Shown piece after piece: positions 1-25,111 of a stretch of 45,939 nucleotides of DNA. Source of the stretch: a virus; IMG/VR virus record IMGVR_UViG_3300025666_000631, positions 1 through 45,939 of that record; one strand, given 5' to 3'. The notes under the pieces are model-generated. The model was not told the origin of the DNA and searched no databases. It saw only the letters and a program-made list of their open reading frames with translations. A program made the position numbers and the translations under genes. Every line of letters starts with the position of its first letter. Within the stretch, counting starts at the first letter, position 1.

Positions 1-300
1 GCAACCGAAATAAAAGGAGCTCTCAATAAAATAGAGGCAATGAGGGGCGTCAGTTATACTTGGAATAAAGGCTCAAGAAAAGACCAAAAAGATATCGGGG
101 TTATAGCTCAAGAAGTCGAGCAAGTGATTCCTGAAATAGTTAGAGAGCATAAATTTGAGGTTGGAGAATTCGAAGGCGACGAAACCAAATACAAAACCGT
201 TGATTATGAAAAACTTAGCGCTGTCCTCATTGAGGCCGTAAAGGAGTTGTCTGCAAAAGTAAAAACTTTAGAAAAAATAGTATCAGATACCCAAGTTTAA
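1..300 (+). CDS. Fibre protein C-terminus with S74 intramolecular chaperone domain (partial)
   Basis: The frame is open from the first base of the window, so only the C-terminal ~99 residues are present; an internal ATG at 40 is probably not the start. The residues match the end of an intramolecular chaperone (peptidase S74) domain: LRG-like 'MRGVSYTWN', then 'GVIAQEVEQVIPEIV', a 'VDYEKLSAVLIEAVKEL' segment and a final coiled-coil helix. In this family the domain drives trimerisation of phage tail spikes and fibres and then cuts itself off at a Ser-Asp bond; that bond lies upstream of the window. The stop codon overlaps the stop of the convergent J-domain gene (297-300). It resembles the S74 domain at 29523-30155, so the phage has at least two. 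The fibre identity is family inference; the domain call is from sequence. Confidence 0.85.
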   Translation, partial: ATEIKGALNKIEAMRGVSYTWNKGSRKDQKDIGVIAQEVEQVIPEIVREHKFEVGEFEGDETKYKTVDYEKLSAVLIEAVKELSAKVKTLEKIVSDTQV

Positions 301-1049: not shown

Positions 1050-1835
1050 TTATCCGATTGACGCAATCAATTCCACTGAATAATTAGCGGAAGGAACTGA
1101 GTCTGCGAATGTTACAGTAGCAGCCGATGTACTTACTGCTGAAACCATGCATGCAATGATTGGATCACTTGCATCTGTACTTCTCAGGAGTGCAACAACA
1201 ACTGGTGTTGAAGCGAATATTCTACCGAAGCTTATTGAACCAGAATTGTCTGACCCATTAGTTACTGTAGAGCTAATTGCTACTACATCATTGGATGCAA
1301 CCGCAGCATTTAAAGAAGAAATGTCAACGCTAAGGTCGGATTCGTTCTTTACGTCTTCAGCTTGTAAGCTAGAAACGTCAACGCTAAGGTCGGATTCGTT
1401 CTTTACGTCTTCAGCTTGTAAGCTGGAGATGTCAACGCTAAGGTCGGATTCGTTCTTTACGTCTTCAGCTTGTAAGCTAGAAACGTCAACGCTAAGGTCG
1501 GATTCGTTCTTTACGTCTTCAGCTTGTAAGCTGGAGATTTCAGTGTTAGTATCACTTTCGTCGATTACTCTCTGAGCTTGCAAAGAAGAAATGTCAACGC
1601 TAAGGTCGGATTCGTTCTTTACGTCTTCAGCTTGTAAGCTGGAGATTTCAGTGTTAGTATCACTTTCGTCGATTACTCTCTGAGCTTGTAAGCTTGAGAT
1701 ATCAGCTTCGATTGTAGCTTTACTCATTAGTGTGGATCCGCCTGCGCTCTGAATTTCGAACGCGCCAGCTCCACTCGAGGCCAATCGGATATTGTCCGAT
1801 AGGCTTAATGTTTCGGTACGGAATACCTTTGCCAT
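1050..1835 (-). CDS. Repeat-containing fibre protein with H-type-lectin-like C-terminus
   Basis: 261 residues. Residues 1-45 are a short N-terminal segment, probably virion-attaching. Residues 46-171 are seven tandem 18-residue repeats of two kinds, 'ISSLQAEDVKNESDLSVD' and 'ISSLQAQRVIDESDTNTE', with regularly spaced Leu, Ile and Val as in a trimeric coiled coil or beta-prism shaft. Residues ~185-261 ('GSISFGRIFASTPVVVALL' to the end) look like an H-type lectin domain, a six-strand sugar-binding fold known from Helix agglutinin, discoidins and some phage proteins. The likely role is a short receptor-binding fibre. It sits downstream of the GT genes and ends at a strong terminator. The lectin call rests on pattern similarity only; the repeats are certain. 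Confidence 0.65.
   Translation of the reverse strand: MAKVFRTETLSLSDNIRLASSGAGAFEIQSAGGSTLMSKATIEADISSLQAQRVIDESDTNTEISSLQAEDVKNESDLSVDISSLQAQRVIDESDTNTEISSLQAEDVKNESDLSVDVSSLQAEDVKNESDLSVDISSLQAEDVKNESDLSVDVSSLQAEDVKNESDLSVDISSLNAAVASNDVVAISSTVTNGSDNSGSISFGRIFASTPVVVALLRSTDASDPIIACMVSAVSTSAATVTFADSVPSANYSVELIASIG
1323..1700 (-). repeat. Seven tandem 54-bp coding repeats
   Basis: Seven in-frame 54-bp units encode 18-residue repeats of the fibre protein. Type A (AEDVKNESDLSVD) and type B (AQRVIDESDTNTE) units are nearly identical within type at the DNA level, in the order B-A-B-A-A-A-A from the N-terminus. The near-identity suggests recent duplication, so copy number may vary between relatives. 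Confidence 0.95.
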
Positions 1836-1836
1836 T

Positions 1837-1850
1837 ACTATTAATTACGT
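1837..1850 (-). promoter_or_regulatory. Variant of the candidate late promoter motif
   Basis: On the minus strand ACGTAATTAATAGT precedes the ATG at 1835, in the position where other units of this block carry GTGTAATA. The match is partial (GTAAT plus an AT-rich tail), so this is the weakest copy. Confidence 0.25.
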
Positions 1851-1886
1851 TTAAAAAAAGCTTTTGGGAACTTTTATTTTTTCTGC

Positions 1887-1907
1887 AACCCTGATAAACA
1901 AAGGGTT
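1887..1907. repeat. Short inverted repeat in an 82-bp gap
   Basis: AACCCT (1887-1892) and AGGGTT (1902-1907) form a 6-bp stem with a 9-base loop in the gap between the lectin-like fibre gene and the three-GT gene. On the minus strand, the coding strand here, no T-tract follows, so it is a poor intrinsic terminator. On the plus strand a T-rich stretch follows, but no plus-strand gene ends there. Confidence 0.35.
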
Positions 1908-1917
1908 TTAAGGTTTT

Positions 1918-4113
1918 TTAGCTACACCAATAGCTCATGAATATTTTTTTTAATTCATGCGGGTAGGCCATAAAATGTAATATAAATGTATCTTCGTTCA
2001 CTAATCTTGGATCTGTGTTAAATTCGTTCATTTCAAATATTTTTCTATTAAGTCCGTAACCATCAGATTTTCGTAGAATTTCGCATAATATTTCTTGATC
2101 CCCTCCGCTAGCATACAGCGAAGATTTGTCTCCTTTGAAGTCTCTCCATTTTGTGATTAAGTTTTTTGTGTATTGATGAGATTTAAGAAAAAATACTCCG
2201 CTGTTCAACATGCAATTGTCGCCGATGTCTTTTGTGGCAAGTATAAATTTCTTAGGAGCTTTTTCTATAATTGACTCGAGTTTTTTTTCTGGATTAAAAA
2301 TTAAAGTGTCTGAATCCATCCATACGATATAGTCGTGATCATCGATATGATTCAGTAGCGCTTGAGATTTCGACCAGTTTGGGCTTCCGTTTTTGTCTAA
2401 ACTTTCTCTGTAGACGTAAAAGCTGTAACCTTGTTTGTCGCAGTATTCTTTTATAGAATTTTCTGAGTGAATTGCGTAGTCTGCTATTTCTTTTGTATAT
2501 AAGCTAACTATAGCTATTTTTTGGCCTGAATTATATTTGCTAAATTTATCCTCAGGTATCTTAGGGTTGGGTAATTGACTTGAGAAATATTTAAGGAAGT
2601 TATAATCTTTAAATTTTTGCCACTGATCTTTAAGGTTTATGAGTTCTTTTTGTTTTATATTATTATTTTTATGCACGCAAGACTGATCTCTCCAGGAGCA
2701 AGTCCAATAAGTTACGGCATACGCCTCGGGAAAACAAGCCTTTGGGTCTTCAAGCCATTTTTTATTTATAGAATTATTTGCCGCAGAACCATTCGTATCC
2801 CAACTTATTGGATAAAAAATATCAGGGTCAAGTATTTTCATATTTTTTGGCTTAAGCCTTTCGAGGCACTCAAAGAGGAAGATTGGACCAGTTGCTATTT
2901 CTGGAGGAGTGGGGTCTCCGTTTTTGAAATATTTATATTCTGGTAGAAGATCTACGCAATCTATCCAGAAGTCTTCTCCGGGGGAAGAGTATTTGAATGC
3001 ATTGGGAATTTCATTTTTATTTATTATATGATCTCTTTCTTTCATTTTTTGTTTACCTAGAACCATAGTCTCGCCAGCAAACAAATCATCTAGAGGCTTT
3101 AAGCATTTAAAATCCAAATCAACATACACCCCTCCGTACCTATGCATGTAAAAAAACCTAGCAACATCTGCCCTGTCTATCGGATTCTCGTAAGAGTCGT
3201 ATATTTCTAGATATTTTGGATAATGATTTTTTACTAAATCGCGATTATTTTCATCTGTCCATAATATATATTGCCAGTCGGGATTTTTGTTTTTCCAGGA
3301 ATCTACCCAATCTTTTTTGTATATATGGTTCGGGATATTTCGGTCTTTCCAGCTTTGGTGAATTATTTTTGTTACCTTTTGTTCCTCAAACTTATCTTGG
3401 TTGCTTCTGATGTCTGAATTATTATCTATTGATGTATTTCCGTTTTCTTCATGTAATTGCCTTGACATAAGGGGGTTTAAGTGAAATACAGATTCAGGGT
3501 TTCTTTTTGGTAAATCATCTTTAAAGAACTTAATCATAAAATGATCAACCGCAGAACTCATGCCGTCTTTTTCTATTGAGCTGCAAAATAACTCTGCCGC
3601 ATTTTTACTTATCACATAAGAGCTGGTAGTCATATGCCAATAATTGTCTCCTTTAGAGAAGTGATCATTTTTTTTGATGTTATTGAAATATTTATTATAA
3701 CAATTTAAGACTTCAGGGTATTTTGCTTTGTTCCATGGCTGGCAACCGCCGAGATATATTAAATTATAATTATCCGGAATATTTTTGCAAAAAACATAGT
3801 TCCAGTAATCTTCAAATTTTTCATTAAATACAACATCATCCTCTAGGATTAAATAACTATCAGAACTTTCATCGAGGGTTAATTTTTTCCATAACCTGTA
3901 ATGACTCAAGCAGCAAGCTATTTCTGCTTTTGTTAGTTTATTTAAGCATTTTTTAAATATCTTTTTTATTTCTTCATTAAGCTCTAGGTTTTTTGCGTCA
4001 ACAGCGGAGGACCTTTCTGCTGAAAATGGTAGACTTTTATTTATATGTTCTAGTCTGTCTGTTCTTCGGTCGAGATTTATAAAGAAAGCTTTACTTATTT
4101 TTTTTAATGTCAT
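1918..4113 (-). CDS. Three-domain glycosyltransferase fusion (GT25 + GT32 + GT34-like)
   Basis: 731 residues with three apparent GT-A domains. Residues 1-~225 match GT25 (LPS-type galactosyltransferase family): 'FINLDRRTDR' at 11-20, 'EIACCLSHYRLW' at 64-75 and the acidic 'EDDV' at 91-94. Residues ~247-470 match GT32 (DXD sugar-binding, Och1-like): 'KIIHQSWKD', 'DRADVARFFYMHRYGGVYVD' and DLD at 332-334. Residues ~530-725 look like the GMA12/MNN10 (GT34-like) fold: 'YIVWMDSDTLIF' with DSD at 600-602 and 'MLNSGVFFLK' at 635-644. All three keep their metal-binding acidic motif, so all may be active. No signal peptide or membrane segment is seen. The start overlaps the end of the DUF2827 gene at 4091-5212 by 23 bases. 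Acceptors and donors cannot be read from sequence. Confidence 0.88.
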   Translation of the reverse strand: MTLKKISKAFFINLDRRTDRLEHINKSLPFSAERSSAVDAKNLELNEEIKKIFKKCLNKLTKAEIACCLSHYRLWKKLTLDESSDSYLILEDDVVFNEKFEDYWNYVFCKNIPDNYNLIYLGGCQPWNKAKYPEVLNCYNKYFNNIKKNDHFSKGDNYWHMTTSSYVISKNAAELFCSSIEKDGMSSAVDHFMIKFFKDDLPKRNPESVFHLNPLMSRQLHEENGNTSIDNNSDIRSNQDKFEEQKVTKIIHQSWKDRNIPNHIYKKDWVDSWKNKNPDWQYILWTDENNRDLVKNHYPKYLEIYDSYENPIDRADVARFFYMHRYGGVYVDLDFKCLKPLDDLFAGETMVLGKQKMKERDHIINKNEIPNAFKYSSPGEDFWIDCVDLLPEYKYFKNGDPTPPEIATGPIFLFECLERLKPKNMKILDPDIFYPISWDTNGSAANNSINKKWLEDPKACFPEAYAVTYWTCSWRDQSCVHKNNNIKQKELINLKDQWQKFKDYNFLKYFSSQLPNPKIPEDKFSKYNSGQKIAIVSLYTKEIADYAIHSENSIKEYCDKQGYSFYVYRESLDKNGSPNWSKSQALLNHIDDHDYIVWMDSDTLIFNPEKKLESIIEKAPKKFILATKDIGDNCMLNSGVFFLKSHQYTKNLITKWRDFKGDKSSLYASGGDQEILCEILRKSDGYGLNRKIFEMNEFNTDPRLVNEDTFILHFMAYPHELKKIFMSYWCS

Positions 4114-5212
4114 CTATTATTTTTGAAAAAATGTTTATGGTTTTTGTTTCGAATGGGCTAAACTCTTTTAATTTCTCTCTTGCTTGCTGAGTGTATTGAT
4201 CTTGAACTTCTTCGTGATTTATCATTGCGCTATAAAGCTGATTGGATCCCCCTAGGATGTCGTGTTTTTCATAATAATATCCGATATCACAAAGACCTGG
4301 GCAGTTGTGAATTAATGGTAAGCCCATATATAACTGCTCAAAGTTTGCGTAATTATATTGATTATCTTCCTGGTGGCTCACTATAACGCTTCCAAACTTA
4401 CTTAACGCATCGAGTGATGACCATCTATTATTAAAATAACAAAAATCTTTCTTTTGCAGTATATCTAATCTTTTAACGAACGCTTCAAAATATTTTCTTT
4501 CTCTGATTCTTTCTGCACAAAAAACATTTATGGATTCTATATTATTGGGTTTCCTAAACTCCAGTCTTTCGCAGATCATTAATGGTACCATGCAGGTTTT
4601 TAGCATGTTGATATTTGGCTCAAAAATACAAACTTTTTTAGAGAACTCTTTTTTGAAAAATGGAGATAAGTTTTTGTTTTTTAATTTATTTATCTCTTCC
4701 TGGACAAATGACGGCTCCCATATCATGGGTGTTGTTATTACATTATCGTTTCCATAGTAGGTTTTTATATACTCTTTGCCTGATTCGTGGTGGGGTAATA
4801 TCCATATTTGATCTATATCCTTACCGAAAGATTTTGGGTTTAACTCGTAATGTTTGTTGGGATATCTTGTTGAGAATATCGTGTTAAATGTATCAATGTT
4901 TAATTTATGGCCGAAATGAGCGACTATAACTTTTAGTTTTTCGTTTCTTTGTTTAAGTTTTTTTACAGCATTCGCGGGAATATCATATCCAGCAATAATT
5001 AATAAGTCAAACTTTTCATTGCCATCCTCCATTAAATCTGTAAATAGCATACCTGTATGCTTGAAGTGTATTTTGTTTTTGGGTTTTTCTTTTACTATAT
5101 AATGACATTCGTGACCTATTCTTTTGAATAAATCGTATAAAAATGTTATGTGTTGTTGCATTCCGCTAGCCCAAAAAGCCGTGGACATATCAAGTGTGAT
5201 TCCTATTTTCAT
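4091..5212 (-). CDS. DUF2827-family GT-B-like glycosyltransferase (copy 1)
   Basis: 373 residues. It matches, from memory, the DUF2827 pattern: N-terminal 'KIGITLDMST' and 'GMQQHITFLYDLFKRIGHEC', 'QIWILPHHE', 'CIFEPNINMLKTCMVPLMIC', then 'VIVSHQEDNQYNYANFEQLY', 'GLPLIHNCP' and 'GYYYE'. The second half has the look of a GT-B C-terminal nucleotide-sugar domain, with an acidic residue in 'NFEQLYMGLPLIHN' where retaining GT-B enzymes place the donor-binding Glu. The family has no firmly known function that I can state, and GT activity is inferred from fold features. Its start overlaps the stop of the next DUF2827 gene in an ATGA (5209-5212), implying translational coupling. Confidence 0.75.
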   Translation of the reverse strand: MKIGITLDMSTAFWASGMQQHITFLYDLFKRIGHECHYIVKEKPKNKIHFKHTGMLFTDLMEDGNEKFDLLIIAGYDIPANAVKKLKQRNEKLKVIVAHFGHKLNIDTFNTIFSTRYPNKHYELNPKSFGKDIDQIWILPHHESGKEYIKTYYGNDNVITTPMIWEPSFVQEEINKLKNKNLSPFFKKEFSKKVCIFEPNINMLKTCMVPLMICERLEFRKPNNIESINVFCAERIRERKYFEAFVKRLDILQKKDFCYFNNRWSSLDALSKFGSVIVSHQEDNQYNYANFEQLYMGLPLIHNCPGLCDIGYYYEKHDILGGSNQLYSAMINHEEVQDQYTQQAREKLKEFSPFETKTINIFSKIIDDIKKNK

Positions 5213-6288
5213 GACAATAATTTTTTATATTTTTCTATAACAATTGGGTTTGTTGGTGAATACTTGTTTAGTACTTGGGCTGATTTTTCCTTGTACTGTT
5301 GTAGGTTTTTGCTATGGTTCGTTATGGCATTTTTTATAGCTTTTGCGGCTAAATTAGTGTCGTAATCTGGGTAAAAATAACCCGCTTCTTTTATGTATTC
5401 TGAATTATGTACCAGTGGTATGTTGAAGTATAAGGCTTCGAGGTATGTGTAGTTCAGTCCGTTTAGCAATTGATGGGATACTACTAAATCGCATTCGTGG
5501 GAGAAGATTTCTGCAACCTTTTTTCTTTTTGCGAAGAATATTTTTTTATGTTTAAATATGTTTAGTTTATTAATTAAGGTTTTGAAATAGAGCTTGTCTA
5601 TTAATTTTGCACTGCAATAAACATTTATATCTTTTTCAAGCTCTTTTCCATTTTGATTAAAAAATTCTTCTAACGCCATAATCGACGGAAGGCAATGCTT
5701 TGTTATGTTTAGGTTGGGCTCTAATATTGCTATGTGTTTTTTATCTTTTTCATTATAAAAGCAGCTTTTATTTATTGAGTTCCATATTTTTTCGTGAATT
5801 TTTACATACTTTGGAGACCATATATAAGGTAGCTCAAAAACCTTTTCTGTTTTGTAATAGGTTTTAAAGTATTCGAATGATATTTCATAGTGCGGCGAGA
5901 TCCAGACTTCATCGACTTCGTCTGGATTCACTGATATGTGATCGTTCCAGCTACATCTTTCGATATCTGCAAGCATTGAATTGCCGTATAATATGTGAAC
6001 GTTCTTGCATTTGGGGTTTGATTTTTTTATAAAATTTATCTTATTAGTATTAATCATCCATGCAGTATTTAATATAAAAGATATATCTTCACAATATTCT
6101 AATAATTCATCTTCTTCTATGATTAATATATCAGCTGGGGGATCAATGCATTCTTCTATTTTGTGATTTATGGCAATAATTGGAGTAAAGCCAATACCTT
6201 TTAATAGTTCAGCAAGGAACACTATATTTTGCTGTAGTCCGTTACTGAATAACCCGTTTTTATAATTGGCAGTAAGCAATATATTCAT
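5209..6288 (-). CDS. DUF2827-family GT-B-like glycosyltransferase (copy 2)
   Basis: 359 residues and a clear paralogue of the gene at 4091-5212: 'NGLQQNIVFLAELLKGIGF', 'DEVWISPHYE', 'PYIWSPKYV', 'IAILEPNLNITKHCLPSIMA', 'LVVSHQLLNGLNYTYLEALY', 'PLVHNSEYI' and 'AGYFYPDYD'. The core motifs are shared while the rest diverges strongly, so the pair is not recent and may act on different sugars. It is the first gene of a three-gene GT unit (6288 to 1918) and is preceded by the GTGTAATA motif 2 bases from the ATG. There is no signal peptide or membrane segment. GT function is inferred. Confidence 0.72.
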   Translation of the reverse strand: MNILLTANYKNGLFSNGLQQNIVFLAELLKGIGFTPIIAINHKIEECIDPPADILIIEEDELLEYCEDISFILNTAWMINTNKINFIKKSNPKCKNVHILYGNSMLADIERCSWNDHISVNPDEVDEVWISPHYEISFEYFKTYYKTEKVFELPYIWSPKYVKIHEKIWNSINKSCFYNEKDKKHIAILEPNLNITKHCLPSIMALEEFFNQNGKELEKDINVYCSAKLIDKLYFKTLINKLNIFKHKKIFFAKRKKVAEIFSHECDLVVSHQLLNGLNYTYLEALYFNIPLVHNSEYIKEAGYFYPDYDTNLAAKAIKNAITNHSKNLQQYKEKSAQVLNKYSPTNPIVIEKYKKLLS

Positions 6289-6290
6289 CG

Positions 6291-6303
6291 CATTTTATTA
6301 CAC
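6291..6303 (-). promoter_or_regulatory. Candidate phage late promoter motif (copy 2)
   Basis: Minus-strand GTGTAATAAAATG ends 2 bases before the ATG at 6288, at the head of the three-gene GT unit. It shares the GTGTAATA core with the sites at 8907-8918 and 11997-12008. Confidence 0.45.
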
Positions 6304-6318
6304 AGCAATTTTCAATAT

Positions 6319-8904
6319 TTATTCAAAAATTACGAAACTAGCGGGATTTAATGTGGATGTGTTAGCGGATCTATTTAATTTATCCAAATTGAAAACATAA
6401 TTTCCGTCCGAGTCAGTTACCCCGCTCGAATTGCACACTGCGAATTTATTATTTAAGTCGTAGGTATTGTTTAATTGTACCCCGTCCGAGTAGGACTGGT
6501 ATGTATAGGCGGTGCCTCCGTTTGGTGCGGACCCGCCTTCGGATATATTTTCAAATATAAGGTTATTTGGGTTTGAGACTGTTGTTCCTATATCTGCTAG
6601 CCCAGCCCCAAGACTATTTGGCGAAGCGGAGATAGTTCTAGAAGAAAAGCCGGCTAATTTATAAGTTGGGTTTGATGATATTGATGTTGTTGTTATATTA
6701 GCAAGGTTTGTTGCAGAAACTTGCCAATTGAAGGTGCCTTTTGTATCTAAATCAGATACTGTTATCGTATAGGAATTACTATTTTTGCCTGTACCTGATG
6801 AATTTTGATTTAGGCTCGAGGGGTTTATTTGGTTAGAGTCTGTGGATAATGTTGGGTTTGACAGCATTAATTGAGAGCTTGACATATAAAACTGGTCAGA
6901 TACTCCATTAGGTGAGCTAGATAAAGATGATGCTAAATTGTTTATAGATAAGGTAAGGGGTGAGTTTGCAATATTTACTATTTTGAAAGATTCTGTCGTG
7001 GCTCCGTTGGATGATTTTGTTGCGCTGATTTTTAAATTATTAACTCCGCCGTCCCCTTCTACATTGTAACCCCCAGCTAAATAATCCGCATTTTTATTTT
7101 GTTCGTATGTGGATGTGTTTGATATACTTAATTGGCTATTAGGGGAAGAGTAAGTTATGGAGTCAAAATTTGTTACATTATTGCTTATCGAGGTGGACTC
7201 ACTTGATTTAATGGCTTGCTGTGAGGCTGGATACGTTATAGAGTTTATTGATATAACCGGTATCGTTCCATTGTTAATTTCGGCAGTACCCGTTGTTGTT
7301 GCTGTATCGCTAATTGTACCAAAGTTATTCCTGGCCTTAAATGTTACAGCTTGTTCTCCATCTCTAGATGAATTCCCTAGCGCCCCATAAACATCAATTG
7401 GTACTAAAAATTCAAAACTGCCATCAGCTAGGGTACTTTTTGAGTATGAGGATGAGTACGATGTTTGAGATCCATTCGATAGACCTTGGCTTAGTACAGA
7501 TATTGATATATCATTTATTGAAACCCCGTTTCCGTCGATAAATATTTTTGAATCAACTACGTCTCCAGCTTTAACTTCTGACGTTCCTATTTGATTTGGG
7601 GAGGTTGCAGAAGAGGCTTGTTTACTTAGTTCTGAGCCGGTTATGACTGGACCATTGGCAATTTTTACTTTTACAAAATCTTCATCTGTTGCGCCGTTTC
7701 CTGTTCTGTATGCGTAAATTTTTACATTATCTGAATTATTATATATACCGTTTAAGTAGGAGACTGTTTTATTTTGCTCGAAGGTGTTTAAGTTAGAAAT
7801 AGAAATATCACTAGAAAGAGTTTCGTATTCCATAAAATCTATCGAGCTGTTCCAGTTGCTTATATTATTATAAAATGATACGCTTTCGCTCTCTCTTAAT
7901 CCATCTGATCTTCCATTATAGGAGGTTGGGTCAGATGAGGAGATATTCGGATAAGTCTGATCTAAGTCTCTTGTTCCGCTATTGTTAGAAAAAGAATCAG
8001 ATCTAATCGCGTCCCCTGTTGATCCAAAGCCATTAACAGCCTGAACCGCAACTCCGTGGACGCCAACTCTGCTTGAAACGATTGTTGGTATAGTTGCCCT
8101 GTAGAAGCCGCCGTGGTTCACAAGGTTGTAATTAGAGAAATTGGAACCCTGAGATAGCCCAGAATTTAAAATTTTTATTGAGGATACATCACTCGTATTA
8201 AAATCAGCATAGATATTAATTTGGTCACCCTGCTTTAAGTGTGTGGAGCCAAGCAGTTCTCCAACTTTGGGCGTAGCGTTGCCAATTGAGTCTATTGAGA
8301 GATTAATGGCTTCAGGGCCTGCCCCTAGTTCTTTAATGGATATTAGCGTTTTTCTATCATTCGCCTCTCCGGTTATGAAATTTAAACCTTCTGCGTTGAA
8401 ATTATCCAAAAAACCTTTAAACCTTCTAGTGTGTTGGCCTAATTCTTCTATATTTGAAAGAGGAATTTGTTGCCCGTTTACAAAAGCTTCTCCCATGTAG
8501 TCGTCGTTTGGGCCGTCCCACCTTAATTCTACCCTTAGGTTTTCTGCAGAGGCAACTGTTGCGCCTGATAGATATAAGTCTGGATTTACTGTTTCATAAA
8601 ATGTTTTATCTGTGACCCCATTATTATCCGAGACATTTGAGAAAAATAAAAATTCGGCAGAACCCGATATAGTTTGCTGTATTGAAGTTCCAAGTTTTGA
8701 GACATCGACTCCTCCAAGTGTTAAGCCGCTGGCAAAATTACCGCTATTAAATTCTACATCATCTGAGGTTCTGACGTTTTGATCCATTGAGACTGATAGG
8801 CCTCCAAAATATAAGTTATCAAAAACGCCAGTAGCCCAAGCTTTGTCAAGCCTGCCTACTCCGCCTTCTCCACTATTTCTTGGTACTAAATTCCTTGTAG
8901 CCAT
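6319..8904 (-). CDS. Large tail-fibre protein with repeated beta-sandwich-like domains
   Basis: 861 residues. Residues 1-~75 ('LVPRNSGEGGVGRLDKAWAT', 'DNLYFGGLSVS', 'RTSDDVEFNSGNFASGLTLG') look like the N-terminal virion-attachment module common in marine phage fibres. The rest is low in Cys and rich in Ser, Asn and Thr, as in extracellular beta-sandwich stalks. One module occurs at least twice: around 'SESVSFYNNISNW...EQNKTVSYLNGIYN...TGNGATDEDFVKVKIAN' and again at 'SESTSISNNVTNF...EQNKNADYLAGGYN...SSNGATTESFKIVNIAN'. No enzymatic motif was found. It is the only gene between two GTGTAATA-type motifs, so it may be transcribed alone or read through into the GT genes. The high Ser/Thr/Asn content would suit glycosylation by the adjacent enzymes (inference). 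Confidence 0.72.
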   Translation of the reverse strand: MATRNLVPRNSGEGGVGRLDKAWATGVFDNLYFGGLSVSMDQNVRTSDDVEFNSGNFASGLTLGGVDVSKLGTSIQQTISGSAEFLFFSNVSDNNGVTDKTFYETVNPDLYLSGATVASAENLRVELRWDGPNDDYMGEAFVNGQQIPLSNIEELGQHTRRFKGFLDNFNAEGLNFITGEANDRKTLISIKELGAGPEAINLSIDSIGNATPKVGELLGSTHLKQGDQINIYADFNTSDVSSIKILNSGLSQGSNFSNYNLVNHGGFYRATIPTIVSSRVGVHGVAVQAVNGFGSTGDAIRSDSFSNNSGTRDLDQTYPNISSSDPTSYNGRSDGLRESESVSFYNNISNWNSSIDFMEYETLSSDISISNLNTFEQNKTVSYLNGIYNNSDNVKIYAYRTGNGATDEDFVKVKIANGPVITGSELSKQASSATSPNQIGTSEVKAGDVVDSKIFIDGNGVSINDISISVLSQGLSNGSQTSYSSSYSKSTLADGSFEFLVPIDVYGALGNSSRDGEQAVTFKARNNFGTISDTATTTGTAEINNGTIPVISINSITYPASQQAIKSSESTSISNNVTNFDSITYSSPNSQLSISNTSTYEQNKNADYLAGGYNVEGDGGVNNLKISATKSSNGATTESFKIVNIANSPLTLSINNLASSLSSSPNGVSDQFYMSSSQLMLSNPTLSTDSNQINPSSLNQNSSGTGKNSNSYTITVSDLDTKGTFNWQVSATNLANITTTSISSNPTYKLAGFSSRTISASPNSLGAGLADIGTTVSNPNNLIFENISEGGSAPNGGTAYTYQSYSDGVQLNNTYDLNNKFAVCNSSGVTDSDGNYVFNLDKLNRSANTSTLNPASFVIFE

Positions 8905-8926: not shown

Positions 8927-10228
8927 TCAAAAAGATATATCTTTAGTAAATGCTTCTGGGCCAGTGTCGTATCTCCACACATTAGCTCTTAGCTCTAGGT
9001 CGCCATCTGCTTTTAATATCCACATCGGATCGGAAATAAAAGGGTGGTTTGTTGGGACTATATCTCCAAACTCATCCTCTTCAAAAGCTTCTTCAAGCAA
9101 GAATCTTTGCTCTTTATAGTTTCCAGAGACCAGAGATGTTCCGGTGTTGGAGTTTATGTTGTTTATTCTTTCTTCTAGATTTTCTATATGTTCGTGGAGA
9201 TGTAACCCTGTAGATATCAAATCCCCGCTCAGAGAATCTACATGCTGCTGGAGATGTAACCCTGTAGATATCAAATCCCCGCTTAGGGAATCTATATGTT
9301 GCTGGAGATGTAATCCTGTAGATATGAAATCCCCACTCAGGGAATCTATATGTTCGTGAAGATGTAATCCTGTAGATATCAAATCCCCACTCAGGGAATC
9401 TATATGTTCGTGAAGACGTAATCCTGTAGATATCAAATCCCCACTCAGGGAATCTATATGTTCGTGAAGATGTAATCCTGTAGATATCAAATCCCCACTC
9501 AGGGAATCTATATGTTCGTGAAGATGTAATCCTGTAGATATCAAATCCCCACCAACCTTGATTAGCGATTCAGCTATATTGATTCCGCTTACATAAAACG
9601 CTTGACTCGACCCTTTCTCAGAGTAAAAAGTTTCTCCCGATATATCCTGAAAGATTCCGGTTTGTAGTACTAAGTTGTCTATAAAGGAATTTTCTGTAAA
9701 ACCACTAGCAGAGCGAAATACTTCTCCCGATATATCCTGAAAGATTCCGGTTTGTAGTACTAAGTTGTCTATAAAGGAATTTTCTGTAAAACCACTAGCA
9801 GAGCGAAATACTTCTCCCGATATATCCTGAAAGATTCCGGTTTGTAGTACTAAGTTGTCTATAAAGGAATTTTCTGTAAAACCACTAGCAGAGCGAAATA
9901 CTTCTCCCGATATATCCTGAAAGATTCCGGTTTGTAGTACTAAGTTGTCTATAAAGGAATTTTCTGTAAAACCACTAGCAGAGCGAAATACTTCTCCCGA
10001 TATATCCTGAAAGATTCCGGTTTGTAGTACTAAGTTATCTATAAAGGAATTTTCTGTAAAACCACTAATCGCAGTCGAACTGTCAGACAGAACATTTTTG
10101 AACTGACCTATTTCGGTCTGTATTTTTTTTCCCTCGATTAAAACAAGAGGGTCTAGCGCTTGCTTTCCTATTACATATTTATCTTGTCCTATTTTTTTAA
10201 TAGGATGACTTATCTCGAAGAAGTCCAT
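8927..10228 (-). CDS. Fibre protein with five 30-residue and seven 18-residue repeats
   Basis: 433 residues. The N-terminus ('MDFFEISHPIKKIGQDKYVI') is followed by a shaft of five 30-residue repeats (core 'GFTENSFIDNLVLQTGIFQD') and then seven 18-residue repeats ('HIDSLSGDLISTGLHLHE') with heptad-like spacing of His, Leu and Ile, probably a trimeric coiled coil. The C-terminal ~70 residues are unique ('EEDEFGDIVPTNHPFISDP...DLELRANVWRYDTG') and could be the tip or a partner-binding domain. Its start overlaps the stop of the upstream fibre gene by one base (TAATG), so the two are coupled and probably belong to one fibre. No function beyond a structural one can be supported. Confidence 0.7.
   Translation of the reverse strand: MDFFEISHPIKKIGQDKYVIGKQALDPLVLIEGKKIQTEIGQFKNVLSDSSTAISGFTENSFIDNLVLQTGIFQDISGEVFRSASGFTENSFIDNLVLQTGIFQDISGEVFRSASGFTENSFIDNLVLQTGIFQDISGEVFRSASGFTENSFIDNLVLQTGIFQDISGEVFRSASGFTENSFIDNLVLQTGIFQDISGETFYSEKGSSQAFYVSGINIAESLIKVGGDLISTGLHLHEHIDSLSGDLISTGLHLHEHIDSLSGDLISTGLRLHEHIDSLSGDLISTGLHLHEHIDSLSGDFISTGLHLQQHIDSLSGDLISTGLHLQQHVDSLSGDLISTGLHLHEHIENLEERINNINSNTGTSLVSGNYKEQRFLLEEAFEEDEFGDIVPTNHPFISDPMWILKADGDLELRANVWRYDTGPEAFTKDISF
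9183..9551 (-). repeat. Seven tandem 54-bp coding repeats
   Basis: Seven in-frame 54-bp units encode an 18-residue repeat, HIDSLSGDLISTGLHLHE with variants QQ for HE and R for H. DNA identity between units is high. The period equals that of the repeats at 1323-1700, although the sequence is unrelated. Confidence 0.93.
9634..10068 (-). repeat. Five nearly identical 90-bp coding repeats
   Basis: Units begin at 9634, 9724, 9814, 9904 and 9994 with an exact 90-bp period. The three central copies look identical base for base; the outer copies differ only at their edges and at one base (ttgtct to ttatct in the last). Synonymous positions are also conserved, which points to very recent expansion or ongoing gene conversion rather than selection on protein alone. 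Confidence 0.96.
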
Positions 10229-11991
10229 TATTTAGCCTTCATGGTATCTCCCTCAATCTTCCACAGGCTAAAGTCTGTATCAAAAGGAGGTTCTCCATGT
10301 ATTGGGATAAGATAATTGCCTTTAGTCTCCCATACGCTAAATTCAGAATCGGGATCTTCCGGAAGCTCTTCAACTGGGAGAATGGAGTCTTTGTGGGAAT
10401 TGCTTTTTTGCGGCTTTTCGATTTCCCATAGATTAAAATTGTTCGTGGGGACAACATCGTAAACACCCGTATCCTTGTAGGTTAAAGAATAGGTAACCGT
10501 GAAACCTGAGATTGTGTGTGGTCTTTTTATAAAAATACCTCCAGCCTCATCGTTTTGTATTTTTACCGCCATGTCCGACTCCAGGTATATTATATCTTTA
10601 TTTAACGGAGAAACAAGCTCTCTATTGTCGTATCTTCTGTTTTTTGCAGTGTGAAACTGAATCGGATAGGGGGAGTGGTTAAAAATAGTGACATGGTCAA
10701 GCAGTCCCCTTTTATACATTTCATTAAAATCTTCGAGCTCGTAAGAGTTTATCAAGCTAGCTCCTACGTTTTCCTGTCTAATCCCAAACATAGTATCAGT
10801 ATGAAAACATTCTGTTTTATCTACGCCCCTATTTGGGTCTGTATATTCTGCATGTATAAAGTAATCCGGATGAAACTCTTCTGGCGTATTCGCGTTCATT
10901 CTTCCATTGTTAAAATAAGTTCCGTATATATCATCAAACAAGCTTCTGTCTGTGCCGTAACTCTGCCCTGTAGAATACCCGTATCTATGATGATCTGGGA
11001 TGTTCTCAAGCAATATAAAATCTTCTTCTATTTTTTGGTTTACGGTTTTAGTTTTTAATTTCCACTGTTGGGATAATTGCCTTGATCTAGGGATTCCATT
11101 TTCGCATACATTTAAGGTTCCTCCTACGTTATCTAATTTACCTATTACGGCATTCAGTAACCTATGGGTTTCTCCATCGTGATCTAAATCGACCCCTTTT
11201 CGAATCCCTGATAATTGACGAGAAATGCCAGAAAGTAATTCGTGGGTTTGTACATCATGATCGAAATCAACCCCTATATGTATGTCCGCAAGCTCCCCTG
11301 AGATGCCAGAAAGCAACCTGTGTGTCTCTGTGTCGTGATCAAAGTCAACGCCTATATGTATGTTGGAAAGTTCTCCAGACAACCCAGAAAGCAACCTGTG
11401 TGTCTCTGTGTCGTGATCAAAGTCAACCCCTATATGTATATTAGAAAGTTCTCCAGACAACCCAGAAAGCAACCTGTGAGTCTCTGTATCGTGGTCTAAG
11501 TCAACCCCTATATGTATATTAGAAAGCTCTTCAGACAACCCCGAAAGTAGTCGATGGGTCTCTATATCATTATTATTGCCTAGGGCGCCAGATATTCCTG
11601 ATAGTAGCCTGTGGGTTTCTCCATCATTATTATTTCCTAATGATCCAGATATTCCCGATAGTAGCCTATGGGTTTCTCCATCGTTATTATTTCCTAATGA
11701 TCCAGATATGCCTGATAGTAGTCTATGGGATTCCGTATCTTGGTCTAGGTTTACCCCGATATTTATATCGCTTAGGGCCCCCGTAAAACCTTGTATGGTT
11801 CCTGATATCCCAAGCAATATCTTGTGAGTATCGCTTAAGTCGATGTAACCACTGAATATATCTGACTGGGGCTCCCAACGCCCCGAGTCATGACTCCAGC
11901 TGTAATTAAAAGAAGGGGACGGTGATAAATGATCAAGCTTCGTTATATCAGTGTATAACGGATTGTTTTTAAAATCTTCTGGGTTCTTCAT
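10228..11991 (-). CDS. Fibre or baseplate-associated protein with 'ETHRLLSG' repeats
   Basis: 587 residues. Residues ~55-290 are tandem repeats built on 'ETHRLLSGLSGELSNIHIGV' and a shorter Asn-rich form ('GSLGNNNDGETHRLLSGISG'), again with regular hydrophobic spacing. Residues ~300-587 form a unique, aromatic-rich region ('DHHRYGYSTGQSYGTDRSLF', 'YFIHAEYTDPNRG', 'YKDTGVYDVVP') ending in two short similar motifs around 'DSEFSVWETKGN' and 'DTDFSLWKIEGD', likely a globular tip. No known enzyme or domain is recognised. It heads a two-gene unit with the repeat protein at 8927-10228 (1-base overlap) and is preceded by GTGTAATAACTT. A structural role is inferred from repeats and neighbours. Confidence 0.62.
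   Translation of the reverse strand: MKNPEDFKNNPLYTDITKLDHLSPSPSFNYSWSHDSGRWEPQSDIFSGYIDLSDTHKILLGISGTIQGFTGALSDINIGVNLDQDTESHRLLSGISGSLGNNNDGETHRLLSGISGSLGNNNDGETHRLLSGISGALGNNNDIETHRLLSGLSEELSNIHIGVDLDHDTETHRLLSGLSGELSNIHIGVDFDHDTETHRLLSGLSGELSNIHIGVDFDHDTETHRLLSGISGELADIHIGVDFDHDVQTHELLSGISRQLSGIRKGVDLDHDGETHRLLNAVIGKLDNVGGTLNVCENGIPRSRQLSQQWKLKTKTVNQKIEEDFILLENIPDHHRYGYSTGQSYGTDRSLFDDIYGTYFNNGRMNANTPEEFHPDYFIHAEYTDPNRGVDKTECFHTDTMFGIRQENVGASLINSYELEDFNEMYKRGLLDHVTIFNHSPYPIQFHTAKNRRYDNRELVSPLNKDIIYLESDMAVKIQNDEAGGIFIKRPHTISGFTVTYSLTYKDTGVYDVVPTNNFNLWEIEKPQKSNSHKDSILPVEELPEDPDSEFSVWETKGNYLIPIHGEPPFDTDFSLWKIEGDTMKAK
11150..11830 (-). repeat. Tandem coding repeats of about 78 and 57 bp
   Basis: In-frame repeats of two lengths: about 26 residues for the THRLLSG...DHDTE form and about 19 residues for the THRLLSG...NNNDGE form. 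Several neighbouring units are nearly identical in DNA. Boundaries are approximate because the two unit lengths interleave. Confidence 0.85.
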
Positions 11992-15410: not shown

Positions 15411-15719
15411 ATGAGGAAATTTATACAGATACCAATGGTAATACAAGAAGATGTGATTAGTGGAAGATTAATAGGAAACGATTTAGTAGTATATAGTTAT
15501 TTATTGATGAAAGGGGGGCACGGCAAACCTATATTCTTTTCCAATAACAAAATAGCAGAAGACCTAGGGGGGATGTCCTACGGCAAGATATCGGCAAGCA
15601 TGAAGAGGCTTTCCAAAAACAACCACATAAAAAGAAGAAAGACTGCAAACAAGATGTTAACCCAGCTAAAAACATTTGTGATAGAGGGCAAGGTTCTAGT
15701 AAACGGGAGGGTGTCGTGA
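15411..15719 (+). CDS. Winged-helix DNA-binding protein, candidate switch regulator
   Basis: 103 residues from the ATG at 15411. A longer reading from TTG at 15375 would place the start inside the promoter -35 and is rejected. The sequence fits a helix_turn_helix_36/MarR-like winged helix: 'IPMVIQEDVISGRLIGNDLV', 'SNNKIAEDLGGMSYGKISAS' (recognition region) and 'KRLSKNNHIKRRKTANK' (basic wing). It lies alone at the head of the rightward unit, next to divergent promoters and a 6-5-6 inverted repeat, and is expected to have a leaderless mRNA, a layout like phage repressors such as lambda CI from PRM. Its stop overlaps the next start in GTGA (15716-15719). A replication-initiator wing is an alternative. 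Confidence 0.72.
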   Translation: MRKFIQIPMVIQEDVISGRLIGNDLVVYSYLLMKGGHGKPIFFSNNKIAEDLGGMSYGKISASMKRLSKNNHIKRRKTANKMLTQLKTFVIEGKVLVNGRVS

Positions 15720-16666
15720 GAGTTTCCGTAAGGATGGAAGGGGGTTTGGGCGACCATTTTGCAGCAAACAGGTTTATACCTGCAATAAAACAGCTTCACC
15801 CAGATTGTACTATAGATCTTTTTTCAGATACAGAAGGAAACAGAGCCCAATCAAACATACTAAACGCCATGTGGCCGTCTCATTTTGAAAACATATTTAT
15901 TATTAAGGACAAAAAATACAATAAATTCAAAATCAAATGTTCTAATTTCCCCGAAGAACTTCATCCCGGAAATATAAATAATGTCCCAGATGAGATTAGA
16001 GCAAGAATGGAATCCTCTTATGACAAGTTTTACGATCTTCATATAGACTCACTAGAATGGCTAAATCATGAGTATGACTGGTTCAAGAGTTTTAATTTTT
16101 TTCCCGCGCCAGAGGTTCAACCAAAAACCGGAGTAGAGCTCCCTGACAAATTTGTACTCGCACATCTATATGCTAGGGACGGTGCTGACTCTAACATGGA
16201 AGATTGGTATATAAATAAATTAATAAAAAACATAATACAAGACTTTCACCTAGTAATACTTTACGACGAAAAGTCGGAGCACAAATACTCAAAACTGATG
16301 AACGAAAACTTAGAAAACATATCTTTTCTCCCTCTATCTCTTGAGGAAATATTTTACGCATCAAGTAAATGTATAGCTTTCTTTGGTGTTGATTCTGGGG
16401 TTAGATATATACCCTACCACCTAGGAAAGCCCACGTTCACCTTTTCAAAATATTGCGAGCAATACGGAACCGTACAATATTCTTATCTTATACGTTGGTT
16501 ATTTAACGAAAAGTTTGTGTTCCCATTGCATTATGATATAAAAAGCGCGTCTAGAATAATAAAAAACACATTAAGGAATCCGGCGTACAAGCTCTACCCC
16601 TTCCTGTTGGATAATATAGAGCAGCTTGTAGCGCAGAGAGACATAACAGGGTATATCACAGAATGA
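15716..16666 (+). CDS. GT9-like (heptosyltransferase-type) glycosyltransferase
   Basis: 316 residues, GTG start overlapping the regulator stop (GTGA). The N-terminus 'MEGGLGDHFAANRFIPAIKQ' matches the GT9 start (GxGDxxxxxPxxxxLk), and 'CIAFFGVDSGVRYIPYHLGK' (219-238) matches the donor-site loop 'D-S-G-x-x-H-x-A..LG', here with Tyr-Ile-Pro-Tyr after the DSG. GT9 enzymes transfer heptose or related sugars from ADP- or other nucleotide sugars; the exact sugar cannot be read. No membrane segments are seen. It opens a run of mostly overlapping or abutting glycan genes reaching 25063 and is followed by a 4-base ATGA overlap. Confidence 0.75.
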   Translation: MRVSVRMEGGLGDHFAANRFIPAIKQLHPDCTIDLFSDTEGNRAQSNILNAMWPSHFENIFIIKDKKYNKFKIKCSNFPEELHPGNINNVPDEIRARMESSYDKFYDLHIDSLEWLNHEYDWFKSFNFFPAPEVQPKTGVELPDKFVLAHLYARDGADSNMEDWYINKLIKNIIQDFHLVILYDEKSEHKYSKLMNENLENISFLPLSLEEIFYASSKCIAFFGVDSGVRYIPYHLGKPTFTFSKYCEQYGTVQYSYLIRWLFNEKFVFPLHYDIKSASRIIKNTLRNPAYKLYPFLLDNIEQLVAQRDITGYITE

Positions 16667-17454
16667 GAACAGCATTATTATTTAGCGGCAAACTCGGAGA
16701 CTGGAAGCATTGCGTGGAGTCAATTACAAAAAACATAATCTGGCCATTAAGGCCAGATATCTTCCTTACAACCTGGGAAGACCAACCGTCTTACGACTTT
16801 GCTAATTATTACAACCCTGTAAAACGGGAAATACTTAATTTTGAGAAAACAATGAAGCTATTGGATCCAACAAAGAACTTGCCCTGCGAGCCAGGCCCCG
16901 GACTAATTCCGATGCTGGTAGGGGTAAAGGCCTCAAACACGATGTTTCATAATTATGCTTCGTTGAAAAAAATTAATTATGACTTAGTCATAAGGCTAAG
17001 GCCGGACATACAAGTACTAGAGCAAATAAAAACTCACGAAATAAAAGATTGCTTAAAAAACAAACACATTAGATTGCCGTTATTCGAAAGTGACAATATT
17101 TATGATCATGAAAAAGAAATGAAAAATGAATTTAGTTTTAGTTTTGTGCATGAAAAAGCTTCACTGCCAAATCAAGTTAACGACCAACTAGCGATAGGAA
17201 GCCCAGACCAAATGAATAAATATGCCAACTGCCTGTCCAGAGTGACGACATCTATACAAACTATGTGGGATAGTGGGTACCCAGAATACATGATTAAAGT
17301 CCCCGAGTCCGTAATAACAACATGCCTGAACATACAACAATGTAAATACAAACAATTGACAGGTACAAATTCCTTTGGTAATATAAAAACGATCCTATGC
17401 AAAGATGGTAAAAAATGGAGAAACAGGGGACATACATCTACAATAGCTGAATGA
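16663..17454 (+). CDS. Putative glycosyltransferase-like protein with RLRPD motif
   Basis: 263 residues. It begins 'MRTALLFSGKLGDWKHCVES', continues 'LRPDIFLTTWED' (29-40) and carries 'YDLVIRLRPDIQV' (106-118), a pattern found in a poorly characterised group of capsule and LPS-locus proteins thought to be glycosyltransferases (recalled as '(V)I+xRxD'). 'VNDQLAIGSPDQMNKYANCL' fits the later part of such proteins. No classic DXD is seen except possibly the RPD. It is coupled to both neighbours (4-base overlaps) within the glycan cassette. The functional call rests mainly on motif and context. Confidence 0.55.
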   Translation: MRTALLFSGKLGDWKHCVESITKNIIWPLRPDIFLTTWEDQPSYDFANYYNPVKREILNFEKTMKLLDPTKNLPCEPGPGLIPMLVGVKASNTMFHNYASLKKINYDLVIRLRPDIQVLEQIKTHEIKDCLKNKHIRLPLFESDNIYDHEKEMKNEFSFSFVHEKASLPNQVNDQLAIGSPDQMNKYANCLSRVTTSIQTMWDSGYPEYMIKVPESVITTCLNIQQCKYKQLTGTNSFGNIKTILCKDGKKWRNRGHTSTIAE

Positions 17455-18407
17455 AAATATTCTTTCCAGATATACATATAACCCTAACTAAAAACTTAAG
17501 CTTAAGCCTGGAGAAGCTTGGGCACCAATTAATAATTCCCTCTGAAGAATACGAAATATCAGAACTACCTCCCCAAGGGTGGGCGTGGAACAAGTCTCAC
17601 TCAAGGAAATCTACTGAAAAGTATGGATTTGCAAAAAACACTATCTATGCCAGCAAAGAAGAAATTCTCGACATAAAACCAGAGGTTATATTTGTAAGCG
17701 CGTTTGAGAATCAATTCGAAGTTATAAACGTATTGTGGCAAGAGGCTAAAAAATGGGGAGCTAAATTAGCGTTTTATAGCGGAAATGATTATTGGGATAC
17801 AGCTTACCCATGGGACATAATACAGAACTATATGCCCGCAGATCAGCTGGCAGCAAGGCTTTGCGAAAAAAACAAAAAACACTACTTCCACTACAGGCCA
17901 TGGATTGATTACGAAATGTTTTCCTACGAAGGCGTGAGCGATTCAGATATAATAGGAACTTATATATGCAATTATAAAGACAATTTCCCCGAAGACTTCG
18001 AATGCTACAACAAAATAAAAAAAGCAACCTCAGCGGATTATTTATTATGCGAAGATAAGACTAAAAAAGAGACGTCCGAAGTGATGAATAAAAGCTGTGC
18101 AACACTGCACATTAAGAGACTAGAAGGCTATGGCTTCGCAGTTATAGAAAGCATGGCAAAAGGTAGGCCCGTATTCTTCTGGGAACCTTTAACGGAAGGA
18201 AAGAGCTATCTTCAATGGTTAAAGTTGGGCGTAACAGCCTTTACATTCAGAGATCTAGGGGACTACACATCTCAGTTAAATTTCTTTCTCTCCAATAAAG
18301 AATTTAGGAATGAGGTTCAATTTAATTGCTCTAAAAAAATAAGAGAGATAATAAACAACGAAGAACAAAATCTTAAATTAAATAATTTCTTAAACAACTT
18401 ATTATAA
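17451..18407 (+). CDS. GT-B glycosyltransferase (GT4-like)
   Basis: 318 residues. The C-terminal part has the EX7E signature of retaining GT-B enzymes: Glu225 and Glu233 in 'LEGYGFAVIESMAKGRPVFF' (224-243). The N-terminal half has Rossmann-type beta strands ('KIFFPDIHITLTKNLSLSLE', 'PEVIFVSAF', 'AKLAFYSGNDYWD'). No signal peptide or membrane segment. The start overlaps the previous gene by 4 bases and the stop shares one base with the next start. Donor and acceptor unknown. Confidence 0.78.
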   Translation: MKIFFPDIHITLTKNLSLSLEKLGHQLIIPSEEYEISELPPQGWAWNKSHSRKSTEKYGFAKNTIYASKEEILDIKPEVIFVSAFENQFEVINVLWQEAKKWGAKLAFYSGNDYWDTAYPWDIIQNYMPADQLAARLCEKNKKHYFHYRPWIDYEMFSYEGVSDSDIIGTYICNYKDNFPEDFECYNKIKKATSADYLLCEDKTKKETSEVMNKSCATLHIKRLEGYGFAVIESMAKGRPVFFWEPLTEGKSYLQWLKLGVTAFTFRDLGDYTSQLNFFLSNKEFRNEVQFNCSKKIREIINNEEQNLKLNNFLNNLL

Positions 18408-19102
18408 TGAAATTACTAATAGTATTACCCACTAGAAATAGATTAAATAAATGCATAGAAGTATTAAAGTCATATATAAACCTATCGACACATAAAGAAA
18501 CTAGATTCGTGATCAGCTGTGACAAGGACGATAGATCAATGAATCAAAAAACAACTATCGACTTAATTCGCTCCTTCCCAAATGTAAGTATTATATTTAA
18601 TGAGAATAGGATAGTAAAAAATAACCTAATTAGCAATTTCACAACAAAAATATGTGCAATAAACTCAGGAGTCAAAGATCAAGATTTCGACGTATGCCTA
18701 CTCGCGAGCGACGACATGCATCCAGAGCTCATTGGTTATGATTCTACAATAGTTGATGATATGAAAAAATTCTTTCCAAATACAGATGGAGTTCTTTGGT
18801 ATAATGATGGCTACCAAGGGCAAAACCTAAACACACTCTGTATCTTAGGAAAGAAATATTATGACAGATTCGGATATATATATCACCCTTCCTATATAAC
18901 CCTTTATTGCGACAATGAATTTACCAAAGTCTCACAAAAACTAAATAAATGTCAATACATAGACAAGATAATAATAAGACACAAACACTGGTCTCACAAG
19001 GACAATAATAACTCAAGAGATTCTCTTGACGAAAAAAACGACACATTCGCCGCAAGTGATGAAGCCAATTTTAGGATGAGACTTAAAAATGATTTTAAGT
19101 GA
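18407..19102 (+). CDS. GT2-like glycosyltransferase
   Basis: 231 residues. The N-terminus 'LLIVLPTRNRLNKCIEVLKS' is a standard GT2/GT-A opening, followed by 'TRFVISCDKDD', 'NFTTKICAINSGVKDQDFD' and an acidic metal site 'LLASDDMHPEL' (99-109). Near the end 'IIIRHKHWSHKD' places His and Lys where GT2 enzymes bind metal and phosphate. It is a compact single domain without membrane helices, unlike polymer synthases. It overlaps the sulfotransferase start by 14 bases. Confidence 0.8.
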   Translation: MKLLIVLPTRNRLNKCIEVLKSYINLSTHKETRFVISCDKDDRSMNQKTTIDLIRSFPNVSIIFNENRIVKNNLISNFTTKICAINSGVKDQDFDVCLLASDDMHPELIGYDSTIVDDMKKFFPNTDGVLWYNDGYQGQNLNTLCILGKKYYDRFGYIYHPSYITLYCDNEFTKVSQKLNKCQYIDKIIIRHKHWSHKDNNNSRDSLDEKNDTFAASDEANFRMRLKNDFK

Positions 19103-19631
19103 ACAAAAAATAATATTCATTCATGCCCCCAGAACTAGCGGGACATCGATCGAGAATGAAATACTAAAAGACCAATTAGTGCCAGATCATCAAAAACACC
19201 TAAGGGCAAGCCAAATAAAGCAGCACCTAAATAAAGAATGGGATGATTATTTTAAGTTTACAATAGTCAGGAACCCCTGGGATAGAGTTATATCTTTTTA
19301 TCACCAAGTTTTCCACGAAGCTTACGGAATAAGAACTGGAAAAAGTTTGTTATTTTTCTTGAAACATTATAGACCCGCCCCCTGGGAGCACGGGTTTCAG
19401 TGCTCTGATTATGCCGATGAAGAAATGGACTTAATTATCAAATTCGAAAATAGAGAAAAAGGGTTAAATTCCCTTCGAGATATTTGCGGCATCAAGGTTG
19501 ACCCCAATAAAAAATCAAGATCAAGAGATAGGGATAAAAAAAATTATAGAGATTATTACGACAATGAGACTAGAGACATAGTCAGGGAATCTTTCGCAAG
19601 AGATATAGAGCTATATGGATATGAATTCTAG
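19089..19631 (+). CDS. Sulfotransferase (Sulfotransfer_2 type, PAPS-dependent)
   Basis: 180 residues. The 5'-phosphosulfate loop is at 11-22 ('IHAPRTSGTSIE', compare HxPKTGGTS), with Arg in place of the usual Lys. The 3'-phosphate site is at 58-71 ('TIVRNPWDRVISFY', Arg61 and Ser69). 'IKFENREKGLNSLRDICGI' fits the C-terminal part of carbohydrate sulfotransferases. The enzyme should move sulfate from PAPS to a sugar hydroxyl; no PAPS-synthesis gene is present, so the donor must come from the host. It sits between a GT2 and an exostosin-like gene and overlaps both, which strongly suggests its acceptor is the glycan made by the cassette (inference). Confidence 0.87.
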   Translation: MILSEQKIIFIHAPRTSGTSIENEILKDQLVPDHQKHLRASQIKQHLNKEWDDYFKFTIVRNPWDRVISFYHQVFHEAYGIRTGKSLLFFLKHYRPAPWEHGFQCSDYADEEMDLIIKFENREKGLNSLRDICGIKVDPNKKSRSRDRDKKNYRDYYDNETRDIVRESFARDIELYGYEF

Positions 19632-20505: not shown

Positions 20506-20528
20506 TAAATTAAAAAATACTATCCAGT

Positions 20529-21194: not shown

Positions 21195-21197
21195 CCT

Positions 21198-25087: not shown

Positions 25088-25111
25088 CTCTTATAAAATC
25101 AATAATATATT

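Follow-up and report, generated by a model that had tools for sequence, protein, structure and literature searches.

A predicted three-glycosyltransferase protein of an uncultured phage lies in a locus whose catalytic domains are exchanged within reading frames

The chlorovirus proteins A064R and A111/114R take part in capsid protein glycosylation (PMC9614988, PMC7826918). PBCV-1 A111/114R, a soluble protein with three glycosyltransferase (GT) domains, is proposed to attach three sugars to a virion glycan as galactosyl-, xylosyl- and fucosyltransferase (PMC7826918). A064R (2p6w, 2p72, 2p73) joins a GT and a methyltransferase, and the fold of its domain D1 is similar to family 34 (PMC9614988). 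Another viral GT, mimivirus R655 (9crz), comes from a giant virus of amoebae. In streptococci, loci for Ser-rich repeat proteins carry variable cytoplasmic GTs (dGT1, GlyE), some of them bifunctional, which adjoin their Ser-rich repeat protein and glycosylate it stepwise (PMC6973325). Among marine phages, pelagimyophages carry several GT genes of variable content beside tail-fibre genes (PMC7029224).

The gene studied here encodes a protein that, by description, resembles A111/114R in uniting three GT domains in one soluble viral chain. However, A111/114R belongs to a virus of eukaryotic algae and is described as conserved in all chloroviruses (PMC7826918), whereas the domain set of the phage locus varies between phages. 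Where A064R combines GT and methyltransferase, phage relatives combine GT8, GXM and the third domain of our protein (D3); A064R-D1 is N-terminal and D3 C-terminal, and the two belong to different virus realms and hosts. R655 is the closest solved relative of domain 1, but its solved chain has 346 residues against 245. The streptococcal loci differ in that the protein they serve is an adhesin of bacteria, for which a dedicated secretion system exists. The pelagimyophage locus is likewise marine, but its variation, as described, concerns gene content, while here it concerns domains inside reading frames. Thus, a viral enzyme with several GT domains is ordinary in kind, and domain-level mosaicism is new to the open-access text searched, in which we found no description of domain-level shuffling in phage GTs and no paper treating DUF2827 together with phage.

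The window, that is, the whole stretch of DNA analyzed, is the 45,939-nt uncultured virus record IMGVR_UViG_3300025666_000631, for which no end repeats are stated. A first-pass annotation made from the sequence alone had proposed a protein of 731 residues with three GT domains in series, each retaining its acidic metal motif. The open reading frame is indeed present and lies on the minus strand, the plus strand of the same interval being riddled with stop codons. The domain search returned Pfam matches for GT25, GT32-type and GT34 in that order, so that each third is a GT by sequence and none proved to be anything else; domains 1 and 3 were additionally recognized as GTs by fold search. The acidic motifs were found at the proposed residues, and their acidic positions are invariant in the relatives. 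Coordinates are collected in the table.

Table. Features of the three-domain gene and its neighbours in the window (positions in nucleotides of the window; residues of the 731-aa protein).
Feature	Residues	Position	Strand	Basis or remark
Three-domain GT gene	1-731	1918..4113	-	731 aa; stop codon 1918-1920
Domain 1, GT25	1-245	3379..4113	-	Pfam PF01755, profile and Foldseek matches
EDD motif	91-93	3835..3843	-	E91, D92 and D93 invariant in 14/14 GT25 rows
Domain 2, GT32-like	246-480	2674..3378	-	Pfam PF04488, Och1 profile match
DLD motif	332-334	3112..3120	-	both Asp invariant in 6/6 rows; also in 3 close rows
Joint before D3	488-530	2524..2652	-	helix 'QKELINLKDQWQKF'
D3, GT-A fold, GT34/A064R-D1-like	531-731	1921..2523	-	Pfam, AlphaFold2, Foldseek, VIA
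DSD motif	600-602	2308..2316	-	both Asp invariant in 16/16 rows; middle residue S or A
DUF2827b gene		4091..5212	-	PF10933, 5.9e-67; overlaps start of three-domain gene by 23 nt
DUF2827a gene		5209..6288	-	PF10933, 4.8e-61; weak Glycos_transf_1 match
'MAKV' protein gene		1050..1835	-	downstream of three-domain gene; candidate glycan acceptor
861-aa protein gene		6319..8904	-	Ser/Thr-rich (23.7%); upstream of DUF2827 pair

Domain 1 gave the clearest family match. PF01755 (Glyco_transf_25) was found at residues 8-193 with an E-value of 1.4e-23 (84.2 bits, cut-off 24), covering profile positions 3-199 of 199. Profile matches were obtained with R655 (4e-18), procollagen galactosyltransferase 1 and a GT25 beta-1,4-galactosyltransferase, and R655 was also retrieved by Foldseek (8e-10). 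The EDD motif aligns with the EDD of procollagen galactosyltransferase 1.

In domain 2, PF04488 (Gly_transf_sug, the GT32-type DXD region) was matched at residues 267-349 (1.4e-19, 71 bits, cut-off 23), and the sequence profile matched the yeast-type mannosyltransferase Och1 (9n3s, 3.7e-7). The putative assignment to a GT32-like family is based on these two matches. The structure model was poor, with pLDDT below 50 over long stretches and three close rows only, because the viral contigs contain only two near-identical relatives of the GT32 clade of the window. Structure prediction, which the annotation had suggested for each third, gave a good model for D3 and a fold match for domain 1, but a poor model for domain 2. 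D3 and domains 1-2 were modelled separately; a joint MAFFT alignment of partial rows stacked domain 1 on D3.

The AlphaFold2 model of D3 had a pLDDT of 86. Its best Foldseek match was PBCV-1 A064R-D1 (2p6w, 5.9e-11), and VIA superimposed the two over 189 residues at 3.1 A with a Z-score of 21.4 and 16% sequence identity across the aligned fold. The next unrelated family in VIA was represented by xyloglucan xylosyltransferase 1 (XXT1, GT34; Z 15.6). More than 600 chains were retrieved at Z ≥ 8, those listed being GT-A enzymes; GlyE (5gvv) was also among the fold matches. A064R-D1 was the top match of the D3 sequence profile (16 rows) too, but with an E-value of only 0.003. By its modelled fold and invariant aspartates, D3 is a GT-A domain with a metal-binding DXD motif. 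The label GT34 given by the first-pass annotation was retained as a resemblance: PF05637 (Glyco_transf_34) was matched at residues 555-616 (2.1e-8, 34.7 bits, curated cut-off 23), a short match confined to profile positions 33-99 (67/238), and in one relative, which contains two of these domains, the same profile scored up to 76.1 bits. As A064R-D1 is the nearest solved relative by both fold and profile, we speak of likeness to family 34 and not of established membership. The D3 model also contains the helices of the joint that precedes it (H2-15 and H19-26). In alignments, this joint is homologous with the N-terminus of a stand-alone D3 gene (MNKKQQEFIxLKNQW).

The dN/dS ratio was 0.08-0.18 for GT25 and 0.02-0.16 for D3, indicating purifying selection on both; therefore their domain matches did not arise by chance. 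For GT32, pairs including the window were saturated and the one measurable pair (L028-L030; L numbers designate loci of relatives) gave 0.20. All three GT-A domains are very probably catalytically active, as judged from sequence, and since the chain contains three GT domains with conserved metal motifs, three transferase activities are most likely united in it.

A first scan revealed that relatives match only parts of the 731-aa protein, as other combinations of its domains. Scans with domain 1, D3 and DUF2827a, and then with module profiles, yielded 28 contigs (the window and 27 from IMG/VR) in which the slot from DUF2827a to D3 is spanned. These contained 21 different module arrangements, or 19 when two GT32 clades were lumped. 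Samples 3300048024, 3300022909 and 3300020185 each yielded two different arrays. The module set was picked from the first loci met and the catalogue is not exhaustive; distant loci with weak module labels (L066, L070, L071, L074) were excluded from the count. The slot lies between the DUF2827 gene pair and a downstream gene, usually encoding a Ser-rich repeat protein. The modules found in it are GT25, GT32 (two or three clades), GT2, GT8, GT47 (in two halves) and D3, as well as pyruvyltransferase-like, GXM methyltransferase-like, sulfotransferase and WbsX modules and several with no Pfam match. The simplest arrangement is D3 alone (L064, L065). The domain order of the window, which the annotation had not recognized as a described architecture, recurred in three contigs of the viral metagenome survey (L058-L060) with another GT32 clade, and the presence of three GTs in one viral protein had its precedent in A111/114R (PMC7826918). 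In other loci, GT2 is added (L056), GT8 replaces GT32 (L061 and L063) or GXM is added (L062).

Near-isogenic pairs display these changes directly. In L054 and L053, the sequences flanking a 1,554-bp in-frame pyruvyltransferase-GT32 insertion between GT25 and GT47N have 96-97% DNA identity, and further differences occur downstream. Between L048 and L073, identity is 94% as far as GT25 extends and 98% from the start of GT47N onwards, with differing modules in between; a GT2 module opens the next reading frame in L073 and is absent there in L048. Compared with L063, L062 has a GXM module of 576 bp inserted in frame between GT8 and D3, and the flanks are 87% and 94% identical. In all three pairs, the changes fall at domain borders. 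A search for microhomology at the junctions revealed no break at a shared word; identity fades over about 15 codons and therefore no recombination mechanism is claimed.

Since all the sequences are metagenomic, and mis-assembly is likely where near-identical strains diverge in their interiors, the mosaic arrangements might be assembly chimeras. However, identical arrangements were recovered in separate contigs (L058-L060, L051/L052, L064/L065, L039/L042 and L061/L063), reading frames are uninterrupted across the junctions, and the junctions coincide with domain borders. We therefore give this explanation almost no weight.

The trees of the modules are in conflict. By DUF2827a, the window and L038 are sisters (97% identity), a clade that D3 rejects (AU p 8e-7), the D3 of the window grouping with L039-L044. 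Conversely, L038, L048, L049, L068 and L073 share D3 and GT47N at 69-95% or more, and DUF2827a rejects this clade (AU p 6e-6). The likelihood differences are large (133 units in the D3 test and 702 in the DUF2827a test), but the p values are somewhat optimistic, as both clades were named after inspection of pairwise identities. Thus, the modules have separate histories. Altogether, these results demonstrate modular exchange and tree conflict at a fixed genomic slot.

GT47 is present in an unusual form. In all GT47-bearing loci of the module-profile set, GT47N ends or sits inside one reading frame and GT47C is found in a later one; in L007:3668-4545, for example, the N-half closes one frame and the C-half opens the next. 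When adjacent, the two frames often overlap by 4-8 nt, and in some phages a GT2, a P533-like module or a sulfotransferase gene is found between the halves. All 16 matches of a GT47C scan (16/16) lay in the same kind of locus or contig. An unsplit GT47 in one chain was found only in the distant L090, where positions 1581-6296 encode 1,571 residues comprising DUF2827, a GT10 fucosyltransferase, GT25 and GT47. GT47N is taken as a putative N-half because it precedes GT47C and because both are united in this single chain; the GT47N profile gave no clear match with the full-length exostosin of the window. One could go further and propose a modular assembly line, in which GT, methyltransferase and pyruvyltransferase chains would form by in-frame recombination, the split GT47 would dock the polypeptides wherever a line spans two of them, and module order would set the structure of the glycan. 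We regard this extension as doubtful.

Module order also bears on whether the domains cooperate. They might all be active but independent, fused for dosage or co-folding, with different acceptors and an order devoid of information. D3 is a stand-alone gene in L002-L006, L064 and L065, and modules are freely gained and lost, so fusion is not obligatory. On the other hand, every array with both GT25 and D3 has GT25 ahead of the other GT modules (only an optional N-terminal part of 260 aa may precede it) and D3 last, which is not expected from purely random fusion, and the domains of A064R act successively on one glycan (PMC9614988). Independent activities are quite possible, at somewhat less than even odds.

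The DUF2827 pair forms a conserved upstream flank, kept in nearly all relatives, and its products may be GT-B-like. On the other side, the MAKV protein has coiled-coil-like 18-aa repeats rich in Ser and Thr. With 25.7% Ser+Thr, it ranks highest of ten window proteins compared (8.8-23.7% for the other nine). Its C-terminus weakly resembles an H-type lectin (PF09458, E 0.011, below cut-off). The slot is always found beside repeat or fibre genes. In the family alignment, most relatives have a downstream protein whose 18-aa repeats are Ser-rich and whose C-terminus is conserved. In L048, L049, L073 and similar loci this protein is much longer and matches mainly through the repeats. The downstream protein of L051 and L052 has no match, and L034 and L035 carry the Ser-rich gene on the opposite strand. 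Therefore the link with the fibre is good but not strict. The 861-aa protein is a probable tail or virion protein, judging by its position and repeats.

Further genes of the window deserve mention. Two structural-looking proteins encoded at 8927-11991 (minus strand) contain near-perfect tandem repeats, with a 30-aa unit 'SGFTENSFIDNLVLQTGIFQDISGEVFRSA' present five times and 'GDLISTGLHLHEHIDSLS' repeats, the copy number varying among relatives. A Peptidase_S74 (endosialidase chaperone) type protein is encoded at 29523-30155 (minus strand), and a short reading frame at the window edge (40-300, plus strand) looks by eye like the C-terminal part of such a protein. A second, larger glycan gene cluster lies between tail genes on the opposite strand (15716-28758, plus). 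It comprises a full-length GT47 exostosin, a sulfotransferase, a methyltransferase, GT2, WavE-like and GT9 genes and a GT1-type protein of 635 aa; at 22011-23432 (plus strand) a HAD hydrolase is fused with a sugar-nucleotidyltransferase domain (473 aa). Sugar traffic of the phage is therefore not limited to the neighbourhood of the fibre.

Our preferred reading, with a probability of about 0.55 as a whole, is that the multi-GT enzyme builds part of a short glycan, that the acceptor is most likely a tail fibre and that the product is varied by domain shuffling. The enzyme would be soluble and cytoplasmic. Together with the two DUF2827 proteins, its three GT-A domains would make part of the glycan, which would be attached in the cytoplasm ahead of virion assembly. 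Gene neighbourhood points to a phage tail-fibre protein as the most likely acceptor, with the Ser-rich repeat protein of the next downstream gene as the foremost candidate. Whole modules would be exchanged, inserted and deleted in frame within a fixed framework, the DUF2827 pair first and D3 last, and the locus would act as a combinatorial site of glycan variation. The selective reason may be evasion of recognition by the host or a competitor, or adhesion. We infer in this way the activity, the sugars, the acceptor, the successive addition onto one glycan and the selective reason.

The enzyme could instead alter a surface polysaccharide of the host (LPS O-chain or capsule), resulting in a superinfection block or in virion release; proximity to the fibre gene would then reflect that receptor use and receptor modification vary together. 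Host O-chain modification is what the authors preferred for the GT genes of the pelagimyophage tail-fibre region (PMC7029224), and surface polysaccharide pathways typically include genes such as the pyruvyl- and WbsX-type modules of relatives and the WavE- and GT9-type genes of the window. However, the surroundings of the locus showed no flippase, polymerase, ligase or membrane-bound initiating GT, although the host could supply them, and no membrane segment is present in the enzyme (Kyte-Doolittle maximum 0.65 over a 19-residue window). Moreover, the nearest fold relative of D3, A064R-D1, was shown to glycosylate a virion protein (PMC9614988), which supports a virion acceptor. We consider modification of the host surface rather unlikely.

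Phage GTs acting on DNA are generally known (reviewed in PMC12619734), and the enzyme might glycosylate modified bases of phage DNA. This is very improbable: PF00303 (thymidylate synthase/dCMP hydroxymethylase) was absent from eight related phage records of 75-184 kb, possibly incomplete, while the control of this search was positive in 9/14 genomes. A Tet/JBP search gave no match either, but its control was likewise silent.

The locus was also sought in known organisms. In isolate phages, no match covered more than 30% of the query, and DUF2827a had no match in 50,697 phage records. The terminase (TerL) of one relative (L093:1336-3207) is at most 28% identical to that of any isolate phage, which places this relative in an uncultured lineage (at least 184 kb). 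In bacterial genomes, the D3 patterns matched only a 71,679-bp contig in a Halobacteriovorax MAG, which carries a distant version of the locus (L074, L097); the IMG/VR record of L074 is also 71,679 bp long. The contig may be a mis-binned phage, and since DUF2827a is absent from 78 relatives of this MAG, Halobacteriovorax was not retained as host.

The diversity of bacterial and viral glycans is usually attributed to whole GT genes being gained or lost. What distinguishes the near-identical phages described here is entire catalytic domains, inserted or replaced within reading frames, with the frame kept and the first and last domains fixed. Such phages form a natural series for testing how each domain affects the product, and their multi-GT chains and joints could be of use in glycoengineering. 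Our results suggest that domain recombination allows uncultured marine phages to vary a glycan, which is probably carried by their own fibres. The phage locus would thus parallel glycan synthesis in chloroviruses.
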